Assembly: GCF_037975245.1 (NCBI RefSeq)
Contig: NC_092562.1
Span: 22,931,554 to 22,995,553, forward strand
From: Apostichopus japonicus
Lineage: Eukaryota; Echinodermata; Holothuroidea; Aspidochirotida; Stichopodidae
Direction of reading: 5' to 3'
DNA length: 64,000 bases
Below are positions 20,701-35,700 of the stretch, one piece after another. A model generated the notes under the pieces. The model made no database searches, was not told where the DNA came from, and worked only from the letters and a program-made list of their open reading frames with translations. Made by a program: the position numbers and the translations under genes. Numbering within the stretch: the stretch's first letter is position 1; every line of letters begins with the position of its first letter.

Positions 20701-23700
20701 GAAAGTATTTACTGCTGGTGTTTATCCACAAAATTTGCCATGGAAATCTGTTTGGGTTTTGTAGCATAAATTCCACAGCGTTCCTCTGTGTTTATGGGTA
20801 TTGTCACAGTAACAAAATCATACTGAATCTTGATATCATTTGAAGCGTCTAATTTTGAGTATACACAGGGTTGTTTCTGTAGACTTTATTCTGTCACAAC
20901 TAGAACGGCCTAGCATTATACACTGAATTATTATTCCATTCATAATTCATTAATATAAATATTCATCTAATTCAAACTCATGAACTCTGATAAAGTTGAC
21001 ACTCCACAGTAAAGACAGCCAATGACAATTACTAACCAGCTTTAATCTCGCTGGGGAGATATTGGTCACGTCGATGGGTGACCTCAACTTGATGTCCTGA
21101 AAGGAAACTTCGGTGATGGACATAGCGCAGACAATATGAGCCCAGTGACCCGTAGTGGTGGGCTTCAGAGCTCCACCTCTTAAATTGCACAGACAACACA
21201 CCTGTAACCAAAGAAGGAAACCAACAAGAAATGTCATTCCATGGATTTTTTAAGTTGACATCTTCAGGGTCTATCAAGTTTACAGAAGAATTTGTAGAAA
21301 AGCTGTAAACACTCAAAATATCCCTGTAAACACTGAAAATAACATAAACAGTAAACAAACAATCAATATCTGTGGTCACAACGATGGTTTGAACACTCCC
21401 TTTTATTGCATTCCAGCCTTTTATTGGGTGCAAACTTTCTACCATTTGGATTGTAACTTGCATTACTCACAATATGCAATCTAGCTGCCAGTTGAAAATG
21501 AGAAAAAAGAAAGAAAAAAGGGAAAAAAAAAAAGAGAGCTATAGAGCTCCTGAAAACAGAAGGTTGTAAGCATCTCTATTACATATGCAAATGATGGTAG
21601 TTTGGTTCACTTTTACTTCAAAAGCCTTCAGAAAAGCTCCCAGCAAATGTGCATCCAATGATACTTTGGTATTGGAGCAGTTATATATTAATCTAGACTC
21701 ACAGAGAGAACAAAATATAATTGAGCATCAAACCCCAAAAAAGTAAAAAGTATACAGTTAAAACTCACAGCTTGCCAATCTTCATCCTTACATCTGTTGC
21801 ATTTCCAATCCTCTGGGGCAGTGGCAGGGTCTTCACCATAACAAGCTGAAATAGGCAGATAACAGGGAAGAAAAATTTAAAGCTGAACTTTTGTGTTCCA
21901 GAATTTGAAGGCTCTGGACTTTTGTCTGTTACAAAAGACTAAGGTTCTTGTGTTCAAAATAATTTAATATATGTTTGCACTTAGTATAGCAATACGACCA
22001 ATAATATGTGTAGTAGCATGAGAGCCTATGGTATACAAGATAGATTATTCACTGGATGGATGTGACATGTATCACATATTGAGTATGATGACCTCCAAAG
22101 TTCTTGAACAGCCATAAGAACAATACCTAAGCAAAAAGGAAAATGCAAGATTCCTCTATATATATATATATACATCTTAGCTATGAATTCGTGTGAAGTC
22201 TAGGCTCTGTGTTTGTTGTCTATCAATTCACACGTCTACTGTGATCAGGGCTGCTGCTTACAATTGAAAAAGGGCACCGAATTTGAGGTATGGGCAGAGT
22301 GTACTAGTGGGGGGGGGGTTCACAAACTTCAAGACCTCTATTTCATGACGGTACATGATTGATGAATGAGCTAATGCACGGTGATAGTCTACACGTAAGG
22401 TATGATTGAATCTGTGACAATATCTGAACTTTTACATGGGAAGACTTCTAGTCAGCTACCACATAGATATTTTAGTGTTTTCCTTTTTTAAATACCTTTC
22501 TCAGATAGAATCCCTAAGTTTTGAACATAATTTAATTTGAAGTAAGTATCTACAACCTCTCAATGGACTGTAATTCGATACATGGAACACAGTTTCGTGA
22601 TTTTATGGGCAACCCCTCAATCTTAGAGTAAGTGTATTTTAAAGAGATATGTATGAAAAACTTGCAGTGGTAGACAGGGATGTGCTCAAGAATACCTGAG
22701 TGCCGGACGAATTCGTGCGGCATTGTGATCTACGTCCTGGGGGAGGGGTCTAAGGGGTGGGGGTGTCCCTCCTTGATAAACTGTTGCAAATGAAGAATGA
22801 TTAGATGGCAAATGGTGCTGTCTTTTTTCCTATTCTGGCACTAACTTCTGTGCCAAGTATTCACCCATATTTTGATAATGGTAAATTCGTTAAATTAAAT
22901 CATCAAAAATAGTGCCTGGGCAGAAATGTTTAAAATACTGTTTGTGCTGGGCGGCATTCTGAACTGCTGGGCCCCCATCCCTGGGCAGATCAATGATTTT
23001 ATGGCACTCCCAAATGTGTGTTAAGTATTCCTCAGCCACGAGGAAACCGAGGTATCTTCACAAAGTATTTCAGAAGATATGACTCAACGGTATGGTTATG
23101 CATCATTGGACTTATTAACACACAATGGAAGAGCGGAAGGAAGAGGGAGGGAGGGTGGGTTGTGATGGGAGGGGGAAAGGGTAGGTTGTGATGATAGGGT
23201 GAGGGGACTGGCAGCAAAGGCAGTCAACTGAGCTTATTTTGACATCAACACAGTATCTTTTGAAAGCTGGTAAAATTTTAAGTCTATGCTCTGTGTTTGT
23301 TGTCTATATATTCACACGTTTACTGTGGTCAGGGCTGCTGCTAAAATTGAAATAGGGCACCCAATCGAGGTATGGGCAGAGTGTACTAGTGGGGGGGGGG
23401 GTCCGAAGGAGAAAAAATCTGTACTTGATAGTGCTTAGAAGCCAAAGAATGGTATCATTTCTTTTATATCTTTATCCTTCAGAATCTTGTGCATTCTACA
23501 TTTGTTCTTTCTGACTTTGCTCAAAAAAATTAATCCGCTTTTTGTTGTACTTTATGTTCCCTCAGTGAGGAGGGCTGCATCCCTAGCTGCAATGTAGGTG
23601 CATGTATTCTTTTGCCAATTCTTGGTTCTACCCATGGTCCAAAAATCAAATGGGAGAGGCCGGCCAGGCCACCGGCTAATGTCTTAGCTGTAAACATTTA

Positions 23701-32700: not shown

Positions 32701-35700
32701 TCTTCATTGGCCTCTTTAGCCACCTACAACTAGATCAGACCCTTCAATCAAGAAATACAAAATCCTCTCTAGTTTCAGTAGCCAAAACACTGGTACTACC
32801 CCATTATTTATCACCTAATTTTGACCACAGGTGAGACATTGCTCAAACTACTGTTCTCAAGAAGAAAAAAGTTTGTCTTTATGTTTATTGATCAGATAAT
32901 AACAGAACAACCTAGATCCCCCCCCCCCCCCCACGCAGCCATTCCTTCAGTTTAATGTCAGCTTGAACCTAGCATCAGATGCCCGATCTTCTTCTCTTCT
33001 GCCAGACTCACCATGTTTTGGGTGCTCCGTGGTGGATGTAGTTTATACTGTACAAGTCCATGTCTTCCGTGTGCCATGCAAATGTAGTCTTCCACATACC
33101 AAAGTAGAGATAGGCTGTGTTGACTCCTTCAATCTTAACACCTGTAAAATATAAAACATGAAGAGGAATTTCCCTTTAACTCTGAATAATCTGCGTCTGT
33201 TAGATAATTTAATTTGCAAAAAGTATCTACAACCTCTCAATGGACTGTAATTCTATACATGAAAAACAGTTTCGTGATTTTATGGGCAACCCCTCAATCT
33301 TAGAGTAAGAATATTTTAAAGTGATATGTACATTATGAACAACTTGCAGTGGTAGACAGGGATGTGCTCAAGAATACCTGAGGCCGGGTGGATTTGTGCG
33401 GCAGTGTGATCTACCTCCTGGGGGAGGGGTCTAAGTGGTGGGGGTGTCCCTCCTAGACAAACTGTCGCAAATGAAATATGATTAGATGGCAAATGGTGCT
33501 GTCTTTTTCCTATTCTGGCACTAACTTCTGTGTCAAGTATTCACCCATATTTTGATAATTAATGGTAACATTTTGTTAAATTAATCATCAAAAATAGTGC
33601 CTGGGCGGAAATATTTAAAATACTGTTTGTGCTGGGCGGCATTTGGAACTGCTGGGCCCCATCCCTAGGCAGATCAATGATTTGATAGCACTCCCAAATG
33701 TGTGTTAAGTATTCCTCAGCCACAAGGAAACCGAGGTATCGTCACAAAGTATTTCTGAAGATATGACTCAACGGTATGGTTATGCATCATAGGACTTACT
33801 AACACACAATGGAAGAGGAGAAGAAAGAGGGAGGGAGGGTCGGTTGTGATGGGAGAGTGAGGGGTAGGGGACAGGCTGCAAAGGCAGTCAACTGAGCTTA
33901 AAACAGTATCCTATTTGAAAACTAGTGAAAGTTGTTAAAATAACGAATCAAGGTTAGTGCCGGTTTCAACAATCATACTAAACAAGTAAAAAACACAAAC
34001 AAACACACAGAGAACTAAAACATAAAAACCCAGTATAAAACAGTAAAAAGCTCTGTATATCAAGGACAGGAATTTTGCATAACTGTCAGTAGTGCAAAAT
34101 TAGAGAAGGATCAATAGAGATCATATACAGTAATACTGTTCGTGTTTATGTACAAATATTTCCATGTAATCAATCTATCAATGAAAGCAACTATACAGAG
34201 GTTAAGTCTGTAATTTACTCTGGGATGGATGTTATCCCAGTTCTAAGTTCAAGACTAAAAATATCAGGCTGAGAGGAAGTTTTTCAAGTATGTTAGTGGA
34301 TGAATTTGTGGGGTGGGGGAGGGGAGCATTTATTATTGCACATTACATGCATCCCTATATTTGATAAATCTCAAGCAACATTAATAATAATACTTATTCA
34401 TATAGCACATTTAACCAGCTGTTTCAATGCATGTTTTCTACAGTCAGGCTAGGACAAGACGTACATTTTTATCAACCTCGGCTGATAATGGCATCTGCCT
34501 TAATTGGCAAAGGGAAGGACCTTCCTTACAGGTTAAACATGTTGCGAACAATTGCAGGAGAATTTTAAGACCCAATAAATAAAGCCATTTTCATGTTTGT
34601 AATTTAACCAATTATTGATATTTCTTCTAACCTTCCTCCTCTTCTATGAGATCCAGTATCGTATTTAGTCTGTTGATGTTCCAAATCTTCCATCCTTTGT
34701 CATATATCGAGCCCGATATGTCAGCTCCATAGATGGGTGGGTTGTACGTTATGTTTTTCCAATATTTTCGTTCAAGGTCCTCGTAGTCGAAATGTGGTGG
34801 GGTACAGTATCTGGAACCAATGGACCGACAAAGATTTGTTAGAAAAGTTCTTAAAAGTGAAGATACTGTACATAAACAAGGAAAATTTCCCAACACGGTT
34901 CAAAACTTTCCATGAACACCAATAAGAAGAGAATGAATAAACAACTAAGGATATATATTTCAAAACTTTGAAATGTGTAATACAATGCATATTGCCATTA
35001 ATTTCTGGCATTGTTAATTGGACATTTATCACTTCTTTGTCTCAATTTTTCTCATCACAGTTTTTTCTTACACATCCTCGTATACAAAGGTATGGCGAGC
35101 CCCAATCTACAGTGCCCTGCTTAAATTCCTTAAATAGTCGTATTTTTATCACAAAGATAAGAAATGTCAGATTTCAACTCTTTAATGAAGCCTTACTTTG
35201 AACTGTTGGCCAGCTTTTTGTATTCCTCCACAGTCATTGCCTTCTTCTGTATATTGTACTGGGTGTACAGTCCCTGGTGACCCATGACCTCTTGTTGAAT
35301 GGGGGCTGGGATTGTCATATCGATATCATCGTACCTCTGTCGTGGAACAAACTCTTTTGGTGGGATAACCTGGAAGAACAGTAACAATATGAGCTTTCCA
35401 ACCCAACCAGAATGATTTAACTTGGAGGTAATTCAAAGCACAACAAACTTAATACTCACAGTAAGAGTACTCAGTCAGCAACTTGAATATTTCCATCAAG
35501 GCTTTTTTAGCAATCCTCTCCTCCCAAGATCCCAGCACCCCCCCTCCTCCCAAGATCCCAGCACTCCCCAATTTACACAAACTCAACAAGAATTCCCAGA
35601 ATCAGTCATTTCATGCTCTGCATAATAGATCCAATTAAATGAATTGTGTACATTTAACTTTCATAGTGCAACTCTTGAGCTTTCAACAAAGAATATTGAG

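Follow-up and report, generated by a model that had tools for sequence, protein, structure and literature searches.

The stretch of DNA analyzed here (the window) comprises 64,000 nucleotides (nt) of the sea cucumber Apostichopus japonicus (contig NC_092562.1, positions 22,931,554 to 22,995,553 of the forward strand), and its minus strand carries, between ca. 21 and 35 kb, the gene of the histone demethylase KDM4. The introns of this gene hold seven short units with the appearance of box C/D small nucleolar RNAs (snoRNAs), which are the subject of this work. We found 11 exon pieces of KDM4 with AG/GT borders that, once joined, gave a single stop-free frame, except that the last join was out of frame owing to one more short exon between the two pieces; a further exon was recognised by motif near 21.8 kb. 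The joined exons matched the JmjC domain of Pfam (E 1.1e-41), the later ones gave matches to zinc fingers of the PHD type and to the Tudor domain of JMJD2A (in the latter case one over its curated cut-off and one under), and the best match of the joined protein was an A. japonicus protein named KDM4C (98% identity over 66% of its length). The mapping starts after exon 2, and the numbers of introns 3–8 follow the count of a previous reading of the same DNA made from the letters alone (the sequence-only reading). The mapped part of the gene and the seven units are listed below, all of them on the minus strand, together with the boxes (read from the sequence) and antisense elements of copy A1.

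21037..34810, minus strand: host gene KDM4, the portion covered by the exon mapping; the gene continues past both ends
33712..33795, minus strand: snoRNA copy B3, in KDM4 intron 3; box D′ CAGA, box C′ UGACGA, one change in the guide core; probably decaying
32626..32712, minus strand: snoRNA copy A4, in KDM4 intron 4
31431..31514, minus strand: snoRNA copy A3, in KDM4 intron 5; same as A2 across 84 nt
30132..30215, minus strand: snoRNA copy A2, in KDM4 intron 6
29402..29486, minus strand: snoRNA copy A1, in KDM4 intron 7; the sole copy with an exact C box
29475..29481, minus strand: box C of A1 (AUGAUGA)
29456..29464, minus strand: D′ antisense element of A1, GUUGAGUCA; nine Watson-Crick pairs with the species' own 18S at 1250–1258
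29446..29449, minus strand: box D′ of A1 (CUGA)
29431..29436, minus strand: box C′ of A1 (UGAUGA)
29410..29422, minus strand: D guide of A1, GGUUUCCUCGUGU; 13 bp with the species' own 18S at 1257–1269, adjacent to box D
29406..29409, minus strand: box D of A1 (CUGA)
28037..28120, minus strand: snoRNA copy B2, in KDM4 intron 8
23028..23111, minus strand: snoRNA copy B1, in KDM4 intron 12 by the present count (intron 11 in the earlier one)

The units are 84–87 nt long and each of them lies in a different KDM4 intron (3–8 and 12), always in the sense of the host. This is largely what the sequence-only reading had described: its statement that all copies are on the host strand proved right (7/7 on the minus strand, i.e., KDM4 sense), as did the presence of one copy per intron in seven introns, numbered as before for introns 3–8, but the copy that it had assigned to intron 11 belongs in intron 12 because of a 66-bp exon piece at 25806–25871. 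When seven placements were drawn at random over introns 3–12, weighted by length, all fell in different introns 4.2% of the time, a figure to be taken as a rough guide only given that the copies are not independent events. Two subfamilies can be distinguished, A (A1–A4) and B (B1–B3), that have almost nothing in common outside the unit. When A copies were aligned locally with B copies, or A4 with the rest of its subfamily, the alignments spanned the unit and extended at most ~10 nt past it. The flanks of B1, B2 and B3 are shared in blocks of 613–830 columns at 86–89% identity, and those of A2 and A3 over a short distance. The longer repeated blocks common to the introns with B copies are found between 22527 and 34160 of the window.

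All the units have the same order of elements: stem, box C, spacer, D′ element, box D′, spacer, box C′, spacer, D guide, box D and stem. Box D is CUGA in 7/7 copies and box D′ in 6/7, with CAGA in B3. Box C reads AUGAUGA in A1 (the one exact case among the seven), AUGAAGA in A2–A4 and AUGAUGC in the B copies, and box C′ reads UGAUGA in A (4/7), UGAAGA in B1 and B2 and UGACGA in B3. The short terminal stem, which brings boxes C and D together, is formed by 4 bp in the A copies and by 3 bp in the B copies, with 90% of the cells paired and one pair that appears as A-U, U-A and G-U. Recognisable C, D′, C′ and D boxes plus a closing stem had been reported before, including the decay of D′ in one copy, which is B3; recognisable they are, but not all of them perfect. 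The features expected of the class (C and D boxes, D′ and C′ boxes, a stem, at least ~10 nt of complementarity to ribosomal RNA (rRNA), and an intronic position in host sense) were all found, and the anatomy, the intronic sense position and the conserved guide cores described below support the box C/D interpretation put forward at the outset. A permissive Rfam scan of 131 bases with A1 gave 28 weak matches, 24 of them on its own strand, and 23 of these were of C/D type (one to a small Cajal body RNA); 17 of the C/D-type matches ended no more than 4 nt from both predicted ends. The equivalent scan of A4 (131 bases) gave nine matches, seven of them of C/D type on its own strand. Judged by these profiles, subfamily A clearly resembles known C/D RNAs. 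Folding of single copies indicated no unusual stability (z from -0.20 to -1.41). Given the C/D boxes, we consider an H/ACA identity like that of U17 unlikely. Elsewhere in KDM4 intron 3 (34146–34237, minus strand) there is a weak SNORA42-like match of 24.3 bits, against a gathering score of 70, that is probably due to chance.

When the seven copies were used to train a covariance model, they scored 92.3–107.1 bits under it, a match by construction, and the next match in the 64-kb window was at 18.9 bits. The latter (10673–10746, minus strand, E 0.0041) is without a D box at its end and is either chance or a very decayed relative. The sequence-only reading had named hundreds of copies dispersed over the genome as the outcome that would indicate a repeat of the short interspersed element (SINE) kind, and we searched the 671.6 Mb of the assembly with A1 and B1 as queries. 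Such copies were not found: each query gave four places, the union of which is just the seven KDM4 copies, within a limited depth of search, as A1 recovered no B copy and B1 just one of the four A copies (A4). A third subfamily as different as A is from B could be missed by these searches. Exact matches to the 12-nt D core number 22 in the genome (six of them in the window), fewer than those to its reversed control (54), and none of the 16 places outside the window looks like a copy, since by eye none has CTGA within the next 23 bases or GTTGAGTCAT in the preceding 75. At the exact D-core places the covariance model gave partial matches only, in 8 rows from 18 sources and with a best score of 11.9 bits. 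A SINE or dispersed repeat is not supported by the result of the two queries, at their limited sensitivity. That the units are a SINE-like or other mobile element resembling a snoRNA by chance would agree with the location of the B copies inside longer repeated blocks (~0.6–0.8 kb) and with the blindness of the search to copies as different as A from B, but the confinement of both queries to KDM4, the rarity of the D core, the seven copies on one strand with one per intron, and the A/B alignment restricted to the unit plus at most ~10 nt make it extremely improbable.

The conservation among copies is concentrated where the units would pair. GTTGAGTCAT is present in 7/7 copies and GGTTTCCTCGTG in 6/7, B3 having one substitution. 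Between A1 and B1 the paired cores differ at 0/21 columns and the remainder at 26/65 (Fisher p 1.4e-4), which bears out the previous claim that the two subfamilies keep both guide cores while spacers and flanks differ. The corresponding values are 0/21 and 11/66 for A1 and A4 (p 0.04), and 1/21 and 29/65 for A1 and B3. Compared with their flanks, B1 and B2 have no mismatches over the snoRNA (0/84 vs. 38/492, p 0.002) and A2 and A3 are identical over the unit (flanks 5/80, p 0.03). The B3 unit differs at 4/84 positions from B1 (flanks 43/602, p 0.29) and also at 4/84 from B2 (flanks 68/700, p 0.09). Because its unit diverges at about the rate of the flanks, and three of its four differences from B1 affect D′, C′ and the guide core, B3 is probably decaying; from the same comparisons the other six copies look maintained. 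One could extend the case of B3 to the whole family and, counting also the C boxes that are one base off the consensus RUGAUGA in 6/7 copies, consider all of them non-functional fossils of an old snoRNA that was duplicated with its introns and is now silent. The absence of changes in the guide cores of A1 and B1 and the preservation of the B1–B2 and A2–A3 units relative to their flanks argue otherwise, and we hold this to be very improbable.

To look for targets the species' own rRNA was scanned, using one ribosomal DNA (rDNA) unit (L033) in which the limits of 18S, 5.8S and the 5′ part of 28S were set with Rfam. In A, the guide GGUUUCCUCGUGU forms with 18S 1257–1269 (ACACGGGGAAACC) a duplex that abuts box D and comprises 12 Watson-Crick pairs and a single G-U; the B guide pairs at 12 of the 13 positions. 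The in-register pairing at this site has an energy of -20.9 kcal/mol in A and -19.2 in B, the next in-register site being at -12.9 and -14.4, respectively. Equally good in-register matches were obtained by chance with 37/6000 permuted guides and 21/6000 random 22-mers of the window. The 12 nt before box D that A and B have in common correspond exactly to the stretch paired with 18S in both subfamilies. Applied to this pairing, the fifth-nucleotide rule predicts 2′-O-methylation of 18S G1261.

The second antisense element lies upstream of box D′, and its 9-mer has in 18S 1250–1258 the sole Watson-Crick match of at least 8 within 18S, 5.8S and the 5′ part of 28S. This site overlaps that of the D guide by 2 nt; among permuted D′ regions, 272/200000 have a 9-mer match inside 18S 1242–1284. 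Ranked by energy, G-U pairs included, this site comes first for D′ in B and third in A, 0.4 kcal/mol behind. Because the duplex sits 6 nt from box D′, we infer that the D′ element is an accessory guide that strengthens docking and not a second methylation guide. As an in-register methylation guide D′ was rejected, with no in-register match of at least 7 in A and one of 7 bp in B. The sequence-only reading had taken the keeping of both cores as a sign of guide function, and the D core does have an in-register 18S target, which that reading had not named; the D′ element pairs outside the methylation register. There are C/D RNAs that do not methylate, such as U13, snR4 and snR45, which act as chaperones or guides of base acetylation. 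A similar role here, with both elements docking on 18S to assist its folding or to guide acetylation of a base, would be in line with their nearly continuous span (18S 1250–1269), but the D guide has the register of a methylation guide, its box lying directly beside the duplex, and the elements overlap by 2 nt instead of flanking an open cytosine, so that we regard it as improbable.

Besides the imperfect C boxes and the changes accumulated in B3, several observations weigh against a family of methylation guides for 18S. No Rfam family reached its gathering score anywhere in the window, a result that tests known families and not the C/D class, and the best Rfam match of A1 was at 23.1 bits for a cut-off of 52 (E 0.017 in 131 bases, 1.7 in 13 kb). 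The permissive scan of B1 gave only three weak matches, two of them of C/D type, which is about the level of the single control intron stretch (two matches, both of C/D type), and by this measure B resembles C/D RNAs mainly via its likeness to A. The covariation of the closing stem is not significant (55/500 shuffles reach the observed pairing), and the distance from the snoRNA 3′ end to the splice acceptor is 320–823 nt in the six introns for which both borders are mapped. The tests behind the statistics on target and cores were devised with the match and the conservation already in view. For the D′ region of A, two other sites score -12.2 and -12.1 against -11.8 at 1250–1258, and with G-U pairs there are 11-nt runs at 18S 1728 and 5.8S 5. 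Finally, if register is ignored, the A guide region pairs with 28S 1096–1108 over 13 bp at -22.1 kcal/mol, slightly stronger than with 18S. The last point bears on the possibility that these are true C/D snoRNAs with a real target other than 18S G1261, be it in 28S, in a small nuclear RNA or in a messenger RNA. The scan covered 18S, 5.8S and the 5′ part of 28S, the 3′ part being N in the unit used (L033 1–4053) and small nuclear and messenger RNAs lying outside it, and the permuted guides that did equally well (37/6000) leave some room for such a target. The 28S duplex is out of register, starting 4 nt from box D, and it depends on bases that are absent in B (only 9 bp there, -13.4 kcal/mol), while the pairing with 18S falls on exactly the 12 bases that both subfamilies share; in addition, the 18S site is ahead by ~5–8 kcal/mol among in-register sites and the D′ element lands next to it. 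Another target appears to us unlikely.

With the anatomy, location, copies found, complementarity and conservation established at the level of the DNA, we think it quite likely that this is a sea-cucumber box C/D snoRNA family that multiplied inside KDM4, one copy per intron, and that guides the methylation of 18S G1261. Intronic C/D snoRNAs are produced by splicing, debranching and exonuclease trimming to a core protected by 15.5K, NOP56, NOP58 and fibrillarin. The units would be transcribed with KDM4 and, after its splicing, the introns would be debranched and trimmed by exonucleases to the protected C/D core, leaving an RNA of ~85 nt. The snoRNP (the ribonucleoprotein particle) would assemble on this core with 15.5K, NOP56, NOP58 and fibrillarin, the D guide would pair with 18S 1257–1269 for fibrillarin to methylate the 2′-O of G1261, and the D′ element would dock on the adjoining 1250–1258 as accessory guide.

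In a numbering converted via m1acp3-Psi1248, G1261 would be human G1265; yeast 18S presumably has the same GGGGAAAC stretch, and we take 18S 1250–1269 to lie beside the hypermodified loop of helix 31. SNORD66, which we take to be the guide for human 18S Cm1272, has its target in the same 18S stretch; the site predicted here is ~7 nt away, the two being compared by site only. In the passage used here, a cross-species methylation table lists nothing at human position 1265, yeast position 1208 or Arabidopsis position 1212, with columns that we assigned ourselves as their heads are absent, and the human entries nearest to 1265 are Cm1272 and Am1031 (PMC11542601). A bolder version of the proposal, which we consider rather doubtful, is that the family methylates a position (helix 31-32, beside the decoding centre) unmarked in human, yeast and plants, with a dose tied to KDM4. 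If true, the seven intronic copies would link the dose of the snoRNA to KDM4, and ribosome modification would be regulated jointly with chromatin state.

Arrangements of this kind have strong precedents in vertebrates. In Xenopus, one snoRNA, U17, is repeated once per intron of a single host, the gene of the ribosomal protein S8 (PMC7601244). The likeness extends to a protein-coding host and to a 12-nt 18S complementarity named in a title cited there, whereas U17 is an H/ACA RNA that acts in processing from a ribosomal protein host, and here we have a C/D RNA in a histone demethylase. Intragenic (cis-) duplication of snoRNA paralogues has been described as a likely major force in chicken and also in other vertebrates (PMC2653536), with paralogues across introns of one host as in our case, but with vertebrate hosts and another target. 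The mobility of snoRNAs between introns has been argued to be general (PMC3511168). For yeast snoRNAs of the snR13 type a guide plus a second antisense element beside the target have been reported, and overlap of guide and accessory base-pairing is described for some of them (PMC5389607); snR13 differs in acting on 25S from the internal C′/D′ motif, while here the terminal D box would guide. Among invertebrates, intronic snoRNA clusters are found in the Drosophila hosts Uhg1-Uhg8, lola, Arpc2 and dom, which are other genes, KDM4 being unnamed among them in the accessible part of the source (PMC13228274). Among the papers listed for snoRNAs together with KDM4, host gene and intron, none presents KDM4 in its title as host of a snoRNA, and a KDM4 snoRNA cluster is unmentioned in the Apostichopus literature among the matches listed. 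The accessible parts of two sea-cucumber genome papers give 149 annotated snoRNAs and an enrichment of snoRNAs in introns, and mention no KDM4 cluster. The kind of arrangement is therefore known, and the family, the host and the predicted 18S site appear new within the literature searched.

These units would add a snoRNA family undetected by any Rfam model, in a little-studied phylum, and with it one sharp prediction, the 2′-O-methylation of 18S G1261. The split into A and B together with the decayed B3 makes a natural experiment on the multiplication of a snoRNA within one host and on which of its parts selection keeps. A chromatin enzyme instead of a ribosomal protein as host raises the question of why KDM4.

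Some other observations were made in the genome and in the window. In one genome contig (C5, ~76 kb to 1.3 Mb) there were 87 matches to the 18S pattern, 32 forward and 55 reverse and many of them ~14 kb apart, that correspond to an rDNA array with apparent strand switches, either real or an effect of the assembly. Away from KDM4 in the window, open reading frames that by eye resemble exons of an alpha-amylase are located at 55198–57464 (minus strand), and those resembling, also by eye, the end of a reverse transcriptase of the long interspersed element (LINE) type at 61626–62278 (plus strand). Between them (57660–58263) there is a tandem repeat that, again by eye, reads in one frame as a run of a GDTSAM-like unit.

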